Positions 47,713-57,539 of a DNA stretch of 64,000 bases are shown here, piece by piece. Position 1 is the first letter of the stretch, and each line of letters begins with the position of its first letter. The position numbers and the translations under genes are program-made. The stretch is from contig JAIVFH010000151.1 of assembly GCA_025765595.1 (NCBI GenBank), positions 1 through 64,000 on the forward strand, given 5' to 3'. The DNA is from Obelidium mucronatum. Lineage: Eukaryota > Chytridiomycota > Chytridiomycetes > Chytridiales > Chytriomycetaceae. Below the pieces are notes generated by a model. It saw only the letters and a program-made list of their open reading frames with translations. It did not search any database and was not told where the DNA came from.

Positions 47713-47913
47713 CTACGAAGACAACTGGCTTTTACGGATTGCCAAAGCAGCTGTTTCAGTCGCATTGCTGTCCATCACATGGCTGGCAATAGGAACCGAC
47801 GTTTTGGTAACCATATTCAATCTTCTTGCACGCAGCCAATAATACTCCAAATTTACGCATTTAACATCTTCAATAATGATTTTTTCAGTGTTGTTGTAAG
47901 CAAAACAGTACGT
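47713..47913 (-). pseudogene. 3' coding end of the retrotransposon-split seven-helix gene
   Basis: Minus-strand frame reading TYCFAYNNTEKIIIEDVKC and ending RKSQLSS before a stop at 47713. It continues the frame of the 5' part (56720-57539) exactly when the LTR element and one ACGT copy are removed: 820 + 197 nt = 339 codons including the stop. It matches the family pattern Y-x-x-(A/V)-x-x-x-N after helix 7 and forms the cytosolic tail. Confidence 0.85.
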
Positions 47914-48990
47914 TGTTACTCGCACTCGAGTTTCGCGTCAAATATTTCTTCGCTGATTTTCGAGATTTCCGCGGAACGGCCGACGCTGCTTCAAAACCAA
48001 CACCAAGAACTCTCCTAGAGCGATCGCCCAGTTCTTTGTGGCTGATCGTCTCGGACTTTTTAATTATCATTGTTTTTTTATTTATTGTTTTGCTTTTCCT
48101 ATATAAACTTGATGTTCTTCCCCCACTTTTTATTCTTTATTCGGATTTTTGTGGTTTTAATCTCTTGCATTCTTCTTTTACGCTCTTGAAGGTTTTTATT
48201 CTTTCTTTATCTCCTTTTTTTACTGATGGAGGGATTTTCTTTGTGATCAAGGTTTTTATTCCGCTATTTCGCTATTGCCTATTACTTTGGACGCGTTGGA
48301 ACTGATTGAACGCGTATAAAAGGTTTGGAGGAAGGAGTGTTGTTGGATATGTTAACAATGGTTGGGGAACTCTAGGTATATTGCATTGGAGCGATTGATT
48401 GGGATTTACCACATAAGTTAACGTATCTGAATTATTGCGAAGGTACAAACAAATAAATATTCGGATTTTTGTGGTTTTAATCTCTTGCATTCTTCTTTTA
48501 CGCTCTTGAAGGTTTTTATTCCGCTATTTCGCTATTGCCTATTACTTTGGACGCGTTGGAACTGATTGAACGCGTATAAAAGGTATATTGCATTGGAGCG
48601 ATTGATTGGGATTTACCACATAAGTTAACGTATCTGAATTATTGCGAAGGTTTTTATTCCGCTATTTCGCTATTGCCTATTACTTTGGACGCGTTGGAAC
48701 TGATTGAACGCGTATAAAAGGTTTTTATTCCGCTATTTCGCTATTGCCTATTACTTTGGACGCGTTGGAACTGATTGAACGCGTATAAAAGGTTTTTATT
48801 CCGCTATTTCGCTATTGCCTATTACTTTGGACGCGTTGGAACTGATTGAACGCGTATAAAAGGTTAACTGGTATTATTCTACTGTGCCACATTGACGCCA
48901 ACAATTTCAAGTCTTCGAACTTAATTGCTGGATACTATCACACGAACCAAAAACTATATAAACAAACAAGAATTTATTGTACTTGTAACA
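47914..48990 (+). repeat. 5' LTR (1077 bp, expanded)
   Basis: Twice as long as the 3' LTR. The first about 340 bp and last about 130 bp match the 3' LTR; between them lie five copies of a 71-bp unit (48251-48321, 48511-48581, 48649-48719, 48720-48790, 48791-48861), each ending CGCGTATAAAA, plus unrelated sequence (for example around 48322-48440, a segment of it repeated at 48582-48648) absent from the 3' LTR. Confidence 0.93.
48251..48861 (+). promoter_or_regulatory. Five-copy TATA-bearing 71-bp repeats in the 5' LTR
   Basis: Each unit runs GGTTTTTATTCCGCTATTTC... to GAACGCGTATAAAA; copies 3-5 are strictly head-to-tail. A TATAAAA sits at each unit's end, so the 5' LTR offers five potential core promoters against one in the 3' LTR (56520-56590). 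Confidence 0.75.
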
Positions 48991-48991
48991 G

Positions 48992-49005
48992 TGGCGAGCG
49001 TACCA
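48992..49005 (+). promoter_or_regulatory. Candidate tRNA primer-binding site
   Basis: TGGCGAGCGTACCA starts one base after the 5' LTR end, with the obligatory TGG complementary to a tRNA 3' CCA. The primer tRNA was not identified; it could also be a half-tRNA-type site. Confidence 0.4.
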
Positions 49006-49035
49006 TTTTAAAATCTATTGTGGTAGTCAGTCAAT

Positions 49036-52017
49036 ATGGGCAAAAGGAAGGATTATTTCAAAACACATCAATTTCGAGGACCGAAAGTCACGGAATTTAT
49101 TTACTACATTCTTCAACAAATTGGGAAAAAGGGTCTGGATAGTGATTCAAAACAGATCAATTATTTATTGGCTATGGTCTCTCAAGCAGTCAATAAAGAA
49201 TACGCGGTTTGGGCGGCTGGACAAACTAAAACCATCAACTTCAAAGAATTGACAAATTGGTTTGCAACCAATTATAAAGATCAAGATATCATCTATAGTC
49301 TTGCGGATTTGGACAAAATGGCAAGAAAGCAACGGTCGCGTGGAATTTTTGTTAGCGATGCGGAATATTTAGGAGAATATAATTCGGTCTTAACTGCAAT
49401 GGACGACAACGCGAAGCCAGGAGATGCGGTTGCGGTAAAAACTTTCCTTCGAGGATTACCGGAACGCAAAGTTCGAGCTATTCTGGATAAAATTATTGGA
49501 GCGGATAATGTTCAGAATAATGATTGGAAAAATTTCTGCAAAGTGGTTACTACCTTGGACAAACTGGAAAGATCAACGAAAGCAGTGTCTAAAGGATCCC
49601 GTCGCAAGAAGCGGTCCGATAGTTCTAGTGATGAAAGTTCCAGTGATGCCGAGGAGGATTCTAGTTCGGAGTCTTCGGATAGCGAATCTTCAAGCTCCAG
49701 CAGTTCTGAAAGTGAAAAAGTCAGCAAAAAGAAAAGAAAATCAAAGAAAGTTAAGAAACCTGATCCGCCTAAAGAGGTTGTGGGCAATACCTCTGTGGAT
49801 GAATTGGCGAAACAATTGGCGGAAATGCAGTTAAACCACGCGAAGGCACAAGAAGCCATCTTCGCGGCTATTTCAAAAATTAGTACTCAACCAGCGTCAG
49901 CAGCAGCAGGAACAACTGGTGGGCAGCGGCCGGATTTTCTTTGCGCGTATTGCGGTACCAGCGAAAAGACACATGCCGTGTCGCGCGATCCATCTAAATG
50001 TGAACAATTTATTCAAGATGTGAAGAATGGTTGGCCGGTTACTTACGTGGAGACAAAGTTTGGGAAACATGAATTCCAGTTCCAGGGAGAGAAAGTCCCA
50101 CTCAGCAATCTAAGAAATGGTGGAGTTAGGGCTTTAATTGAAAAAGAGAAGAGTAAAACAGCGGTAGCGTCTTCAAAAACTTTCAAAGCTGTACCCATTT
50201 GGAATGACGTGGACTATGAGTCTGAAGATTCGGACTTTGACGAAAACTATTACTCCGTTCTTGCGTGTTCTCAAAATTGCACTTTGAAAAATGAACCTTG
50301 GATTCCTTCTCTTGTTCCTAAGTCTGATGTCAAGAATGAAAAATGGTCAGAATTAAAAGGGACAGCACATGCGATTAATGTCTCAGTACTTACAGCAAAT
50401 ATAATCTATGAGCCGATGTCGATTCCTGATTTTCATGGTGGTGCTATGTTGTTGGATGACCCAAAAGGACAGACTTTCCTTGCGGTAGATGTCTTCAAAG
50501 TCATGTGTGGCGTCGATGTCACTGAAGAAGAATTAAATGAAACACACAATTCAATGGTTAGTCGCAATGTTGGAAATGGCGGTCCTTACACTGTTGATCA
50601 AGTGGCCGCTGAGTTGTTGGAAATCCGCAGTCATGTCAAGCGTCGAGCCGATGAAGAAGCCGAAGGCGACGCTGATCGTCGAAAGACTCGTTCGATGGGT
50701 CGTGAGGAAGCTCTGAAGCCGTTGGCTAAGTTCCAGGATGTTCCTAACCCGACGTCAATTCCTGCGGTGCCTGCGGTTCCACCTCCGAATTTAAAGCCGA
50801 TTTTTTCTAAGAAACCTATGGAAGATAAGTCTGAGACTCCGCAAAAGAAAACTGTCGAATTTCAAGCGCAATCACCTCCAGCTCAGAAGCGTCCTTATAA
50901 GTTGGTTCGAAAGGGTCCAGTTGGCGACGGCAATCCTGAAGAAGTCGCGAAGAAACTAGTAGCTCAAACCCAACTAAACATTTCGTTGGAAGAGCTTTTA
51001 ATTGTTAGTGAGCCTGTCAGGAAAGTTCTGAACACTTACACGGGTCTGACGCGCGAGTACTCTGACGCTAAGAATTCCAATCCTGGCACTCCAATGCAGT
51101 TGCATTCTGTGGTTTCGCAATACGACTCGGGGACTACAGACTCTTCTGCTCAATATTTCGTAAATTCGGCGCTGTCGGAGGATAATTCAGTTTCAAGTCC
51201 GCCGCCGATGTTGGATCTAAAGCTGAATGAGGAAATTTCAAGACACCTCACATCACAGTACCTGACGAATCCTAGAAATCCTAGCGAAGTTCCAACTTCA
51301 ATGCTCAACATCTTCATTCGTAATTTTGAATCAATCGCACAGACTGGCGAGTATGCGTCATTCATCAAAGATAAGGACGTCGCTCTGTCGAAGATGTCGT
51401 CTAGCCGATTCTATGATGCGAAAGATCCCTATTTGTCTTGTCATTTCTCGTCTGTTGATGTGCCTAAGTCGGATTTAGCCCGTCTAGCCGATCCTAATAC
51501 TCAGCTAGCCCTGTATCCAGCTCCGGCTATACGCAATGTCCTCTTTCAAGATCTTGTCTTGTTGCCAAATTGTCCACTTGATGAGGGCGCCGAGTCGGTT
51601 TTTGCTCAAATGGAGTTAGCGTCTAAATGTCATTCTGTAAATGAGTTAGTAACAGACGTCAAATTATTCATGGTTTCCGCAAATAGCGCTCGAACGGAGA
51701 TCTTTGGATTAATTCGAAACGCGTCAATAGTCGCTGGTGGAATTCAAACGTTTAATCAAGTCTGGATTTTACCTAAGCTGCCACCAAATGTGAAACCTTC
51801 ATTCCAATTACTTCTTGGTATGCCTTGGAAAAAGACTACGCGATGTGTCACTGGCTGGGATGATTATGGTAATGTTTGGGCTAAATTACACTCACCCGAT
51901 GGCAAGAAAACAGTTCAAATGCAAGTCACCAATATTAATGATCCTCGCGTTGTCATTGACTATGAATCGCCGTCGCAACGAAAGCTTGATCGTTCCGAGA
52001 CTGCGGGTTTTCAGTGA
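49036..52017 (+). CDS. Retrotransposon ORF1: gag with zinc-finger-like motif and protease-like C-terminus
   Basis: 993 residues. Starts MGKRKDYFKTHQFRGPKVTE. Residues about 185-240 are a Ser/Asp/Glu-rich then Lys-rich stretch (SSSESSDSESSSSSSSESEK, KKKRKSKKVKK). A zinc-knuckle-like FLCAYCGTSEKTHAVSRDP..C follows near 300. Around 640-660 LNISLEELLIVSEPVRKVLN matches a segment preceding the protease in fungal gypsy elements. The end contains FQLLLGMPWKKTTRC, like the retropepsin LLGxPW strand; the catalytic Asp could be in QYDSGTT (near 690) but this is unsure. The ORF ends in TGA 52015-52017 directly after a slippery heptamer. Confidence 0.85.
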   Translation: MGKRKDYFKTHQFRGPKVTEFIYYILQQIGKKGLDSDSKQINYLLAMVSQAVNKEYAVWAAGQTKTINFKELTNWFATNYKDQDIIYSLADLDKMARKQRSRGIFVSDAEYLGEYNSVLTAMDDNAKPGDAVAVKTFLRGLPERKVRAILDKIIGADNVQNNDWKNFCKVVTTLDKLERSTKAVSKGSRRKKRSDSSSDESSSDAEEDSSSESSDSESSSSSSSESEKVSKKKRKSKKVKKPDPPKEVVGNTSVDELAKQLAEMQLNHAKAQEAIFAAISKISTQPASAAAGTTGGQRPDFLCAYCGTSEKTHAVSRDPSKCEQFIQDVKNGWPVTYVETKFGKHEFQFQGEKVPLSNLRNGGVRALIEKEKSKTAVASSKTFKAVPIWNDVDYESEDSDFDENYYSVLACSQNCTLKNEPWIPSLVPKSDVKNEKWSELKGTAHAINVSVLTANIIYEPMSIPDFHGGAMLLDDPKGQTFLAVDVFKVMCGVDVTEEELNETHNSMVSRNVGNGGPYTVDQVAAELLEIRSHVKRRADEEAEGDADRRKTRSMGREEALKPLAKFQDVPNPTSIPAVPAVPPPNLKPIFSKKPMEDKSETPQKKTVEFQAQSPPAQKRPYKLVRKGPVGDGNPEEVAKKLVAQTQLNISLEELLIVSEPVRKVLNTYTGLTREYSDAKNSNPGTPMQLHSVVSQYDSGTTDSSAQYFVNSALSEDNSVSSPPPMLDLKLNEEISRHLTSQYLTNPRNPSEVPTSMLNIFIRNFESIAQTGEYASFIKDKDVALSKMSSSRFYDAKDPYLSCHFSSVDVPKSDLARLADPNTQLALYPAPAIRNVLFQDLVLLPNCPLDEGAESVFAQMELASKCHSVNELVTDVKLFMVSANSARTEIFGLIRNASIVAGGIQTFNQVWILPKLPPNVKPSFQLLLGMPWKKTTRCVTGWDDYGNVWAKLHSPDGKKTVQMQVTNINDPRVVIDYESPSQRKLDRSETAGFQ
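52005..52011 (+). promoter_or_regulatory. -1 ribosomal frameshift heptamer G GGT TTT
   Basis: GGGTTTT sits exactly in the gag reading frame as G|GGT|TTT (X XXY YYZ), followed by CAG TGA. Slipping back one base continues as TTT TCA GTG AAG into ORF2, which lies in the -1 frame. It would make a Gag-Pol fusion. No downstream structure was assessed. Confidence 0.7.
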
Positions 52018-52025
52018 AGGCTGGA

Positions 52026-55000
52026 ATGCTACCGGCCGTTAAATATGAAATGCTAGAAAATATTACTACCTGTCAGTCTGGATTGGTGCAAGGACAGAGT
52101 TCAAGAATTTCAATTATTTCTTGGAACGTCAATTCAGTTAGAAATGCTGTCAAAATCATGAGTCAGGAGAATAAAGAGGAATTGCTGTCTTACGATGTCG
52201 TGTTGATTCAAGAATCTAAAGTCTCTCAAGATATCTTGTCTAAGTTTTCGACACTTGATTTAAGCAGATTCCATGTCTTCCACTCTGAATTTCCTCATGA
52301 GGAACTTGGTTTTGGAAAATGTCGAAATGGTGTCTTGACGCTGCTGAAAAAGGACAAGTTTGTTTTTCCAACGCGTGTTGTCTGTTGCCCTCCTTCTATG
52401 ACTGTCGCTGAATCCGAGGGGCGATATTTAGAAGTCTGTCTTGGTTCCGTTGTTATTCTGAACGCGTATTGTCCAAACGCGAGTCGCGGAAATATTCATC
52501 GATTACCATACAAGGAGAAATTCAATAACGCTCTTTTATTCAGAATTCGTCAATTAAAAAGTATGGGATTCTCAGTAATTTTGGGAGCCGATGTCAATGT
52601 TGCCCAAGAGCTTTCTGATATACATCCACGTGTTGTTCCCTGGATTACCTCTGGATTCCAGGATTCTGAACGTAATTGGCTTCGTGAATTGACTGGGGAA
52701 TTACAGGATAGTTTTCGCGTCCTGCATCCCAATGATTCGGCATTCACAACTTGGTACTATTATTCGCGGAAGGATAATCTGGGAATGCGTTTTGACGTCG
52801 TGCTGGTTTCAAAGGACATTTCTGTTAGGTCGTGTGTTCATGGCCATCATATGTTGGGATCTGACCACGTACCTGTTATCTGTGTCATCGATTTGCCTAT
52901 TACCGCTATCTCCAACAAGGCAAAGAAAGTTGCTGATAAGATTCGTCCAATTGCTGCCGAAATTCCTGGTGGAAGTCCGTCTTTTATTCTTCCGTCGGTT
53001 CCAGTTGACTTGATTCCTACACCGCGTTTAACAGAAGAACGGCTGGATAAAATGTTTGCTAAGTCAAGAAAAGAAAATCCTGGTTACCTTCGCGACGCTG
53101 AATATGAATTCCTCAAGGAGTCTGTTCGCAAGTATCCTACAGCGTTCTCTTTTAGACTTGCTGAACTAGGTCGCGTGAAGCCTGAGTATAGTCCTCCTGC
53201 GGTTATCCATACTATTCCTCACAAGCCTTGGAATCATAAAGTCCGTCCAGTTCCTCCTGCCATTTTCGATGCCGTTACTGCCTTTTATAAGGAGCGGATT
53301 GATGCGGGTCTTCATGAGTTGTGCAGTTCTCCATATGCTAATCGATGGTGGGCACTGGTTAAGAAAGACGGTAAATTTAGACCTATAATGGATGGACAAG
53401 ATATGAATTCGGTTACCATTCGCGATGCTGGCGGTCTCCCCTTGATTGAAGACATGACCGAGCGCATTGCTGGAAAGAAGTTGGTCTCGGCGTTTGATAT
53501 GATGTCCGCGTTTGACCAGATTCCTCTTGCTGTTCAAAGTCGAGATATGACGGCAATTAATACTCCGATTGGTCAAATAAGAAATACGGGCTTACCTCAA
53601 GGTGGTTGCAATTCGATGGCAATTACTCAAAGAGTCACTACGTCAGTCTTTGTAACTCCTGGAACTGGTAATACTTCCGCGTATGCTGATGATCTTTCTG
53701 CTGCGTCCGGAAGCGGTCCTGTTCGCGATGATGAACCTGAATTCGACGGTATTAGAGACTTTGTTCGAGAGCATGCGGTTGTCATTGAGTGGATGTGTCA
53801 ACAAGCTATCAATTCGGGTCTTACCTTCAGCGGTGCGAAAGTCGATTTAGCGTTGATGAAGACGCTTGTAACTGGCGTTATTTGTGGTCCTGAAGGCCGC
53901 GAGATTAATCCTGTGAAATTGGATGCTATGGTGCGGTTTCCAAGTCCTAACTCACTTGAAAAGCTACGATCCTTCCTGTATCTTTGTTCGTTCTTTCGGC
54001 AGTGGATTCATCGGTTTTCGTTACTCTCGGCTCCGCTGTTTCGTCTCACTCGCAAAGGGATTGGTTGGAGCTGGAGTGATAGCGAATTTGTCGCTTTTGA
54101 AAATTTGAAAAATGCAATGTTGCATGCACCTGTCCGATGCACTCTGGATTATGCCGCTTTTGTAAGTCGTCCACCATATCTTTACTTTGACGCTGCAAAA
54201 GAAGCGGAAGCGCAAGCGTTGGGGCAGAAAGACGATCAAGGTCGTTTAAGGGTATCGCATTTCTTCAGCGGTTTATTTTCCTCGGGTGAACTTGAATGGC
54301 ATATTGTCAAAAAGGAGCTGCGTTCGTTGTCTCTGGGTCTTAAGCGAGCTGAAAGTCATATTCGATTGGCGCCGTGTGTCAAGGTTGTCGGCGATGCACT
54401 CTACTTGAAAGGCATGATCAACGATCCATCAAACTCGGATATGGCTATGCGCCGCTGGATCTCCTATATTCTGACATTTCCGATTGAGTTCGAGGTGGTG
54501 GCTTCAAAGGATAATATAGTCGACGCTTTCACTCGAATGTATGACGAAAAGGACAAGTCTGATGATCTATACGACGGCAATGAACTTGACGATTCTATTG
54601 ATCGAATGTTGAATTCTGTGTCTGTCTGCCGTTTCGCTGGATCACGCGCATATGCGCTTCAAGAGGATTATTCTGCGGACGAAGAATTGAGTCAAGTCGC
54701 ATATTATCTGGATACTCTTGGATTTTCGGAAAGCCTAACGGAGAAAAAGAAGTCTTTTATTCGGCGGAAGGCAACTGGATTCTATTTGCGCGATGGAATC
54801 TTATTTAAACGCTCAAAAGATAATATTCCTAAACGGGTTGTGGTCAAGCGGGATATTCAGTTCCAATTAATCAAAGAAGCACACGCGGGTGTTGGCGGCG
54901 GTCATGCGGCGTTTGAAGCTACTTATCTGACTCTGCGTCTACGGTATTACTGGAGAGCTTTGCGAACTGATGTCAAGGAATTTTGTGAGCGGTGCGATGA

Positions 55001-56288
55001 CTGTCAGCGGATGGCCTTTCAACGTCAGAAGGAAGCGGTGCGGCCATCAAAAACTCCTACAACATTATTCTTGGTTTGGTATGGCGATTGGTGCGAATTT
55101 CCGGAAACTGGGAACGGCTTTCGGCAATTATGGCACTTGACTGAAGGGATCTCTGGACTCAATGAAGCAAAAGCCTTCAAGCGTCAAACTTGGGAAGCTG
55201 CTATGAAATGGACTATTCAGGATGTGTTACATCGTTACGGGTATGCAGCACTATTTTGTTTCGATGCGAGCTCTATGTCTTCAAAGGATGCAAGGGCGAT
55301 TTATGACCTATACAAGATTGAAATCCGTCTCATTGCTCCTCACAATCATAAGGGTCTTGGTCCTGGCGAACGGCGACATACTCCATTAGTGGGCGCGATC
55401 GCAAGGTCTTGTCGAAGCGATCCAAAGAAGTGGGCGGAACGCGTCTCTAATGCCTGTCTTGCTACAAATATTCACACAAACTATCGCGGATATTCAGCAT
55501 ATGAGATTGTTTATTATCAGCAGCCGTTTATGCATCTGGATATTGTTCAAGAATCGTTCTCTATCATCAATTTTCGCGAAGGAATGTCTTTGGTTGACTT
55601 GTTGGCTGGCAGAATGCGCGTCTTGGAGCGTCGTGTTTCGGATCTTGAACATGTGAAACGTCAAATTGAGGAGAATCGAAAGAAAGGCGCGGATTACTAC
55701 AACGAAAAACACAAGAAACAACTGCGGTCTGAGCGCTTGAATATTGGCGATGCGGTTCTTATCTTCGACTCAAACTTGCACGATCATTTTCATCGCAAAT
55801 TGAAAGATGTCTGGTACGGTCCATTTATTATTCACGACGTTCGTGATGGAACCTATGTCTTGAAGGAACTAGACGGAAGAAAACGCAAGCGTCCTGTTTC
55901 TGGTGATCATCTCAAGCTCTGGTATCCTCCAATGGCTTTTAGTTCTACGACGCTGTTTTGGGATGAAGTTGAAGTTTCTAATTCTGATGTCCACCCGTTG
56001 ATTTCTGCTATTCTCTCCAGTACTATCATTGATCCATTTGAAGACCTTGATGAATTGTCTGAGCTTGTTTCGCTTGAAGAAGTATCTGATGCCATCTCTG
56101 TTGGGAATTCTTTCCATGTGGGTCAAGTTTCTGTTTTCTCTGCGTCAAGGGACGACGCATTGCTACCGCTGGGTTCAAAGGACTGTTACTCGCACTCGAG
56201 TTTCGCGTCAAATATTTCTTCGCTGATTTTCGAGATTTCCGCGGAACGGCCGACGCTGCTTCAAAACCAACACCAAGAACTCTCCTAG
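52026..56288 (+). CDS. Retrotransposon ORF2: EEP/APE-type endonuclease + RT + RNase H-like + integrase
   Basis: 1420 residues from the first ATG; reading also possible from upstream by -1 frameshift. Residues about 28-295 form an exonuclease III/APE-type domain with all motifs: SWNVNSVRN, VVLIQESKV, ILNAYCPNA, VILGADVNVA, MRFDVVLVS, LGSDHVPV (catalytic N, E, Y, D/N, D, H). The RT follows with FDMMSAFDQIPL, GLPQGGCNS and YADD (53682-53693), then YLYFDAAKE..ALG and WHIVKKELRSL (RNase H-like, degenerate). Integrase: zinc finger HAGVGGGHAAF..CERCDDCQRM; core Asp in WYGDW, Asp in CFDASS and Glu in GERRH; then a GPF-type module (KLKDVWYGPFIIHDV). The last 34 codons lie in the 3' LTR. Confidence 0.92.
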   Translation: MLPAVKYEMLENITTCQSGLVQGQSSRISIISWNVNSVRNAVKIMSQENKEELLSYDVVLIQESKVSQDILSKFSTLDLSRFHVFHSEFPHEELGFGKCRNGVLTLLKKDKFVFPTRVVCCPPSMTVAESEGRYLEVCLGSVVILNAYCPNASRGNIHRLPYKEKFNNALLFRIRQLKSMGFSVILGADVNVAQELSDIHPRVVPWITSGFQDSERNWLRELTGELQDSFRVLHPNDSAFTTWYYYSRKDNLGMRFDVVLVSKDISVRSCVHGHHMLGSDHVPVICVIDLPITAISNKAKKVADKIRPIAAEIPGGSPSFILPSVPVDLIPTPRLTEERLDKMFAKSRKENPGYLRDAEYEFLKESVRKYPTAFSFRLAELGRVKPEYSPPAVIHTIPHKPWNHKVRPVPPAIFDAVTAFYKERIDAGLHELCSSPYANRWWALVKKDGKFRPIMDGQDMNSVTIRDAGGLPLIEDMTERIAGKKLVSAFDMMSAFDQIPLAVQSRDMTAINTPIGQIRNTGLPQGGCNSMAITQRVTTSVFVTPGTGNTSAYADDLSAASGSGPVRDDEPEFDGIRDFVREHAVVIEWMCQQAINSGLTFSGAKVDLALMKTLVTGVICGPEGREINPVKLDAMVRFPSPNSLEKLRSFLYLCSFFRQWIHRFSLLSAPLFRLTRKGIGWSWSDSEFVAFENLKNAMLHAPVRCTLDYAAFVSRPPYLYFDAAKEAEAQALGQKDDQGRLRVSHFFSGLFSSGELEWHIVKKELRSLSLGLKRAESHIRLAPCVKVVGDALYLKGMINDPSNSDMAMRRWISYILTFPIEFEVVASKDNIVDAFTRMYDEKDKSDDLYDGNELDDSIDRMLNSVSVCRFAGSRAYALQEDYSADEELSQVAYYLDTLGFSESLTEKKKSFIRRKATGFYLRDGILFKRSKDNIPKRVVVKRDIQFQLIKEAHAGVGGGHAAFEATYLTLRLRYYWRALRTDVKEFCERCDDCQRMAFQRQKEAVRPSKTPTTLFLVWYGDWCEFPETGNGFRQLWHLTEGISGLNEAKAFKRQTWEAAMKWTIQDVLHRYGYAALFCFDASSMSSKDARAIYDLYKIEIRLIAPHNHKGLGPGERRHTPLVGAIARSCRSDPKKWAERVSNACLATNIHTNYRGYSAYEIVYYQQPFMHLDIVQESFSIINFREGMSLVDLLAGRMRVLERRVSDLEHVKRQIEENRKKGADYYNEKHKKQLRSERLNIGDAVLIFDSNLHDHFHRKLKDVWYGPFIIHDVRDGTYVLKELDGRKRKRPVSGDHLKLWYPPMAFSSTTLFWDEVEVSNSDVHPLISAILSSTIIDPFEDLDELSELVSLEEVSDAISVGNSFHVGQVSVFSASRDDALLPLGSKDCYSHSSFASNISSLIFEISAERPTLLQNQHQELS

Positions 56289-56719
56289 AGCGATCGCCCA
56301 GTTCTTTGTGGCTGATCGTCTCGGACTTTTTAATTATCATTGTTTTTTTATTTATTGTTTTGCTTTTCCTATATAAACTTGATGTTCTTCCCCCACTTTT
56401 TATTCTTTATTCGGATTTTTGTGGTTTTAATCTCTTGCATTCTTCTTTTACGCTCTTGAAGGTTTTTATTCTTTCTTTATCTCCTTTTTTACTGATGGAG
56501 GGATTTTCTTTGTGATCAAGGTTTTTATTCCGCTATTTCGCTATTGCCTATTACTTTGGACGCGTTGGAACTGATTGAACGCGTATAAAAGGTTAACTGG
56601 TATTATTCTACTGTGCCACATTGACGCCAACAATTTCAAGTCTTCGAACTTAATTGCTGGATACTATCACACGAACCAAAAACTATATAAACAAACAAGA
56701 ATTTATTGTACTTGTAACA
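56184..56719 (+). repeat. 3' LTR (536 bp)
   Basis: Starts TGTTACTCG, ends TTGTAACA followed by ACGT. One copy of the 71-bp TATA unit (56520-56590). The first 105 bp also encode the pol C-terminus. Confidence 0.95.
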
Positions 56720-57539
56720 ACGTACAAGTGAAATTCTGCGTCAAATAGACAAAATAATATATAAACGGCGATGTCACGTCTGCAAAATAGAATATATAGA
56801 GTGCATATGCATTGACGCTGGTTACAACAAGGCTTCGAAAAACTGATGAAAGGAACACATCCGTAAACAGGACTGCAAACAAAATCGGATTATGGCACAT
56901 ACCATTCTCTTGAAGAATCACTTCCCCAATTCTTGTAATATCAGAATTGAGAAGCTCCCACGTAGACGCGATCGAAACCACTGAACAAAACAAGTCGCAA
57001 ACAATATCTGCCAGACTACATCCCAACCCTGTGATAGGGTGCTGGATAAATCCACAAATTTGCGCTTCCGAGTCCCAAAAACCTTGCGAGTAGATAATGT
57101 CCATAATGGACCATAAAGAACGATGTAGTAGCAGGGCGGGAATAACACGAGACACGATCTTGCTGTTTCCGCTGATTATGAAACACTTCAAGATCAGAAA
57201 CGCGTTGAAAACGGCATAGAACGCGTGGGATAAGATATTCGTGGTCATCATGGCTCTACGGCATGCTTGTGAGCCACGGGAGAACCCAGAAAACTCAGAG
57301 ACAAGCGAAAAAGAGATGCAAAGAATATTAAAAAGAGTCATTAGAGCAGGCAATCTATAGTGGCCATATGATTGTTTTTCATTGCTGTTCTTGGAGTGAC
57401 GAGCAGTCTGCCCTGATTTGTTCTTTTTGTAATTTTGAAGCTGAAAGACGACTGCAGACATTATTCCCGAGAGTGAAGTCTCTACAATGATTCCCACGGC
57501 TGCTCCCAATATGACTTGCCTTGCTTTTGGGTTATCCAT
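56720..57539 (-). pseudogene. 5' coding part of the seven-helix gene split by the retrotransposon
   Basis: Start at 57539 (MDNPKARQVILGAAVGIIVE). Family signature present: LLLHRSLWSIMDIIYSQGFW, CGFIQHPITGLG, LADIVCDLFCSVVSI, and helices 6-7 before the insertion at TQNFTC. The insertion truncates the tail, replacing it with LTR-encoded residues LLQVQ before a stop, so all seven helices could still be translated. Divergent from AFG2 with 140 bp between starts. Confidence 0.82.

Follow-up and report, generated by a model that had tools for sequence, protein, structure and literature searches.

The capture of a foreign domain by a long terminal repeat (LTR) element is a known kind of event; retroviruses, for instance, captured dUTPase. 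Retroelements are also reported to have captured an archaeal-type RNase H (PMC5348765), chromodomains (PMC3248453) and DNA methyltransferases (PMC5890265), and the Kuafuorterviruses are presented as LTR elements with sporadic Exo_endo_phos domains, perhaps host-derived (PMC11673190). Here we describe a Ty3/gypsy-type LTR retrotransposon in a stretch of 64,000 nucleotides (the window) from the chytrid Obelidium mucronatum (assembly GCA_025765595.1, contig JAIVFH010000151.1, positions 1 to 64,000), the pol of which begins with an EEP nuclease domain of the exonuclease III (ExoIII)/APE1 type. Unlike in the earlier captures, the enzyme belongs to a base-excision-repair nuclease family; and unlike in the Kuafuorterviruses, another LTR superfamily, found in animals, for which the EEP is reported as sporadic and the passages on it give no position, type or selection (PMC11673190), the domain is lineage-wide here in one genome. 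Neither this architecture, an EEP within a gypsy-type pol, nor its lineage-wide presence was found described in the open-access literature, most subscription journals and Repbase lying outside that search; in those papers it is not the widely described feature of fungal gypsy elements that it might have proved to be, and they come closest to it in a single sentence, that on the sporadic Exo_endo_phos of Kuafuorterviruses.

The window holds a single LTR retrotransposon (47914-56719), laid out as follows; we regard this predicted anatomy, together with the assignment of the EEP to the ExoIII/APE1 family, as close to certain.

47910..47913 and 56720..56723, no strand: target-site duplication ACGT, flanking both LTRs
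47914..48990, + strand: left LTR, TGTTAC...GTAACA, 1077 bp, containing an array of 71-bp repeat units (~48374-48865)
48992..49005, + strand: primer-binding site TGGCGAGCGTACCA, starting one base past the left LTR
49036..52017, + strand: gag open reading frame, 993 aa, with a Cys/His-rich motif at 49942 (by eye)
51580..51828, + strand: protease-like end of gag, D-E-G replacing D-S/T-G (51580) and an LLGMPW motif (51811), by eye
51990..56288, + strand: pol frame, 1432 codons before the stop, -1 relative to gag
52005..52011, + strand: slippery heptamer G GGT TTT (X XXY YYZ), candidate from sequence for the -1 frameshift from gag to pol
52110..52889, + strand: EEP domain, exonuclease III/APE1 type (Pfam, NCBIfam, structure model)
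53361..53852, + strand: reverse transcriptase (RT) core (Pfam RVT_1), YADD at 53682
54072..54473, + strand: RNase H-like domain (two RNase H-like Pfam models; D, E, D, D by eye)
54846..55013, + strand: integrase HHCC zinc finger (Pfam Integrase_H2C2)
55086..55370, + strand: integrase core, candidate D, D, E at 55086/55263/55368, by eye
56184..56719, + strand: right LTR, 536 bp

With Ty3/gypsy elements (Metaviridae) the element shares its TG..CA LTRs, primer-binding site, gag, -1 frameshift, short fixed target duplication and the order RT-RNase H-integrase, the last recognized via its HHCC finger. It departs from them in the ExoIII-type nuclease heading pol (between RNase H and integrase in its relatives), in an RT far from that of Ty3, and in the D-E-G of its protease-like motif; against solved structures only, the best match of the RT is 4ol8 (Ty3; 2.3e-14). 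The initial annotation described a recent element with one open frame, in which the EEP comes before an RT of gypsy type and the HHCC finger of an integrase; the Pfam matches, the frame and the LTRs bear this out. The DDE integrase of that annotation stands in part: Pfam recovers the finger, but its model of the core (rve) gives no match at an E-value of 1 or better on the window pol, and the D, D, E are residues picked by eye.

A profile search returned an Exo_endo_phos match in pol (E=6.8e-12, residues 43-293) and, taken alone, the EEP scores 130.1 bits on NCBIfam TIGR00633 'exodeoxyribonuclease III' (cut-off 99.05). The catalytic motifs named at the outset are all in place, N at 52125, E at 52212, Y at 52467, D/N at 52590/52596, D at 52794 and DH at 52863/52866, giving the complete ExoIII-family set N, E, Y, D, N, D, D, H. 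These eight residues are unchanged in 12/12 element EEPs, which are 25 to 100% identical to that of the window; identity to 79 aligned prokaryotic relatives is 24-32%. Structure prediction, which might have refuted the assignment, instead yielded an EEP fold (predicted local distance difference test, pLDDT, 82.4; predicted template modelling score, pTM, 0.86) with APE1 and ExoIII as top structural matches; prediction from the single sequence was uninformative (pLDDT 36.6). Unlike other members of the ExoIII/APE1 (xth) family, this domain sits in a retroelement polyprotein, and the hydrophobic abasic-site pocket of APE1 (F266, W280 and L282) is represented by T, M and F in the window EEP. Given these replacements, we file the EEP as ExoIII-type and not APE1, and hold abasic-site cutting to be less sure than exonuclease or phosphodiesterase action. 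W280 is retained in three rows of the second element lineage (lineage B, below).

The suggestion of selection on the domain is supported by codon comparisons. Among four intact copies (window, C93, C10a and C295; C-numbers denote contigs or elements elsewhere in the same genome), the ratio of non-synonymous to synonymous substitution (dN/dS) of the EEP is 0.06-0.14 in 6/6 pairs, which are not independent, with 33.5-50 synonymous and 10-23 non-synonymous differences per pair; between more distant copies, saturation of the synonymous sites precludes a ratio. These values indicate that the EEP is kept, less strictly than the RT; the pooled ratio of the pol C-terminus is 0.20. The two LTRs match at 100% in C93 (1007 bp), C10b, C26 and C493, at 99.9% in C10a, at 99-100% in C295 (compared in pieces), at 98.9% in C579, 98.5% in C196 and 98.1% in C85 (piece found), which points to the recent insertion of several EEP families; no pair was found in the examined stretches of C625 and C601, and decayed copies also exist (C12, C53, C167). 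The window and C93 pols form a mosaic, the RNase H being identical over 170 codons and the EEP having a dS of 0.29, which suggests recombination or gene conversion between copies.

Two RT lineages combine an EEP with a gypsy-type RT, and the EEP takes one of two positions in pol. Comparisons covered prokaryote sets and this genome, and the genome-wide counts are lower bounds. TIGR00633 matches occur at 91 places, 20 of them above the cut-off, and all of these (20/20) are followed on their own strand by an integrase finger no more than 8 kb away. From the other side, 33/94 integrase-finger places are preceded by an EEP, again on the same strand and at no more than 8 kb (89/91 TIGR00633 rows entering this pairing); the gap is below 600 bases in 20, with the EEP between RNase H and integrase, and 1.9-3.0 kb in 13, with the EEP before the RT. 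Grouping 49 RT matches by score order, and taking the best 70 of the 91 EEP rows within a span from 3.5 kb upstream to 2.5 kb downstream of an RT, we found an EEP near 19/22 RTs of the window's lineage (A), 7/7 of a Ty3-like lineage (B) and 0/16 further gypsy RTs. A tree of 16 RT rows recovers lineages A and B with supports of 99/97 and 100/100. The EEP precedes the RT in 16 members of lineage A and follows it in three (C21, C579, C53), as it does in 7/7 of lineage B; Pfam scans of six elements likewise place it before the RT in C10b, C26 and C493 and after RNase H in C625, C601 and C579. In C579, whose RT is of the window's lineage, the EEP lies between RNase H and integrase as in lineage B. 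The three further lineage A RTs (C96, C400, C595) belong to relatives that are of, or close to, the C10b/C26 type.

As to the origin of the domain, the initial annotation had linked it to the endonucleases of long interspersed nuclear elements (LINEs), as their hallmark. This link is not supported, the domain being of the cellular ExoIII/APE1 type, and profile scores, PDB ranking and signature residues all speak against a LINE origin. Two LINE EEPs of the same genome reach 91.4 and 63.5 bits on TIGR00633, below the cut-off; one of them, searched against the PDB, returned the LINE-1 endonuclease first (1.3e-10); the two LINE EEPs of this genome compared with the window EEP share 16 and 19% identity with it; and W267 is present in both element groups and the cellular rows, but not in three LINE rows. 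Phylogeny answers in part. In a smaller tree (96/93) and in a larger one (95/91), a branch has the three LINE rows by themselves on one side, but the placement of the element lineages is weakly supported: lineage A falls among cellular ExoIII/APE1 rows in the larger tree (80-91), and lineage B beside LINEs in the smaller (78/75), where the deep order is unsupported. A clade of lineage A with LINEs is not rejected (p 0.20, smaller tree), nor is a single clade of A and B (approximately unbiased test, p 0.19 smaller, 0.35 larger tree), so that one capture and two are both allowed. The larger tree drew on 18/79 prokaryotic rows and did not include those of Azospirillum, zebrafish and host APN2; in both trees the LINE root is an assumption, and the deep branches are long and their order unsettled.

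Of a host donor, a search of the genome with the mouse APE1 core recovered, apart from the elements and fragments of them, nothing but exons on C51 and C150, though it could miss an intron-split APE1-type gene; the C51 exons are read, by their motifs, as host APN2. Viral contigs gave no relatives with the two patterns used, and all matches in plasmid and phage records lay below 60% identity (27-30% among the 16 matches listed). Among the 50 structural matches listed from BFVD, most were EEP proteins from large DNA viruses, two came from phages and a few were unnamed; identity was 10-21% and none was named a retroelement.

We propose, with confidence that we would call evenly balanced, that the Gag-Pol of a Ty3/gypsy-type element has captured an ExoIII/APE1-family nuclease that repairs the cDNA before integration. 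The -1 frameshift would deliver the nuclease into the particle along with the RT, where the cDNA would be its nearest substrate. Acting there as a 3'-phosphodiesterase/3'-5' exonuclease or as an abasic-site endonuclease, it might clean up 3' ends that are blocked, damaged or mismatched, or clear ribonucleotides left over from the primer, whereupon the DDE integrase would insert the repaired cDNA in the usual manner. That the EEP works on the element's cDNA and not elsewhere we would put at even or a shade under. Within the cDNA it would most likely work on 3' ends or at abasic sites, the altered pocket of lineage A favouring the former; and that selection has kept the domain intact suggests that, before inserting its DNA copy, the element mends or trims it. 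A narrower form of the proposal, in which an RT-fused ExoIII-type 3'-5' exonuclease/phosphodiesterase serves as a proofreading and repair module that edits mismatched or blocked cDNA 3' ends before integration, kept in one RT lineage and recurring in a second at a different position, seems to us tentative and somewhat unlikely.

Several observations weigh against the proposal. The structure model was built with an alignment of ExoIII rows and is biased towards the ExoIII fold; the window's lineage replaces F266 of the abasic-site pocket by T and W280 by M or F; and the pooled dN/dS of the EEP (0.13) exceeds those of the RT (0.03), RNase H (0.02) and integrase (0.04). C96, C400 and C595, 3/22 of the lineage RTs, have no detectable EEP, none of the 91 EEP rows lying on these contigs, so that the domain may be dispensable or these copies truncated. 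Finally, C26 (GCGT vs ACGT, 3/4 bases alike) and C493 (TTAT vs TGGT) lack a 4-bp target duplication.

Among the alternatives, an action on RNA or on an RNA/DNA hybrid, in which the EEP would take off the tRNA primer, assist in the manner of an RNase H or attack the RNA of the host, is unlikely. In its favour, enzymes of the ExoIII/APE1 family show RNase H-like activity and act on abasic RNA, and the structural matches include, by title, APE1 complexes with abasic ribonucleotide DNA; against it, the element already has an RNase H-like domain. A purely structural or nucleic-acid-binding module devoid of a nuclease role would accord with the replaced pocket residues and with a constraint weaker than that on the RT, but the eight catalytic residues persist across all 12 element EEPs, down to 25% identity, and we consider it quite doubtful. 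Improbable, too, is nicking of the chromosomal target in the manner of LINEs, with insertion by target-primed reverse transcription or at nicks, a role that had been entertained from the outset. The EEP domains of LINEs do nick the chromosomal target, the catalytic residues needed are complete, and, as in APE-type LINEs, an EEP and an RT share one protein; but this element has LTRs and an integrase, its EEP scores as ExoIII and is not of the LINE type, and it does not qualify as a LINE. The integrase region is strongly constrained (pooled dN/dS 0.04), the primer-binding site is tRNA-complementary, the LTRs are of the TG..CA form, and exact 4-bp duplications, which speak for an integrase and not for target priming, flank 7/9 elements compared (window ACGT, C93 TTAG, C10a TGGG, C295 CCCA, C10b CCAG, C579 ATGG, C196 CTGC).

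LTR elements do pick up host sequence, and the EEP could in principle be a functionless, hitchhiking piece of a host gene; such a chance capture is contradicted by the dN/dS of 0.06-0.14, by the presence of the domain in 26/29 elements of the two lineages and by the deep divergence among element EEPs, and is very improbable. The genome also has other EEP genes and LINEs, from which a neighbouring fragment might have been mis-joined, in nature or by the assembly; with the same 1432-codon frame in four copies on four contigs with different flanks, this has a negligible likelihood.

Were cDNA repair by the captured nuclease to hold, it would bear on the general biology of LTR retroelements, which have an error-prone RT and leave the mending of their cDNA to the host. 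A lineage with its own nuclease of the base-excision-repair family would offer a natural way of asking whether retrotransposition is limited by damage to the cDNA or by the quality of its 3' ends, and would parallel the retroviral capture of dUTPase. For automatic transposon classification, it matters that the presence of an EEP with an RT is not in itself enough to identify a LINE.

Turning to the remaining anatomy, the primer-binding site TGGCGAGCGTACCA complements CCA plus a tRNA-like 3' end ...GGTACGCTCG; a tRNA-shaped pattern ending in GGTACGCTCG occurs at 18 places in the genome, with identical 20 letters in 18/18 (seven for a reversed control pattern). The slippery heptamer is identical in the four copies read and is GGATTTT in the relative C493; no RNA structure beyond chance lies downstream of it (z 0.81). 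Pfam gave no protease (retropepsin) match above cut-off; by eye, the protease-like motif reads D-E-G, D-D-G or D-K-G in the EEP-first elements read (window, C493, C10b, C26) and D-S-G in C579 and C625. The aligned LTR pair of the window differs by one T, plus ~540 bp of repeats present in the left copy only, where 48374-48865 comprises the 71-bp tandem array together with related units in a mosaic; these extra repeats may reflect expansion after insertion or at strand transfer. In C26 and C10b, lastly, a fast-evolving linker of ~400 residues with repeated motifs lies between the EEP and the RT, with a dN between the two of 0.44 in the linker and 0.19 in the EEP.
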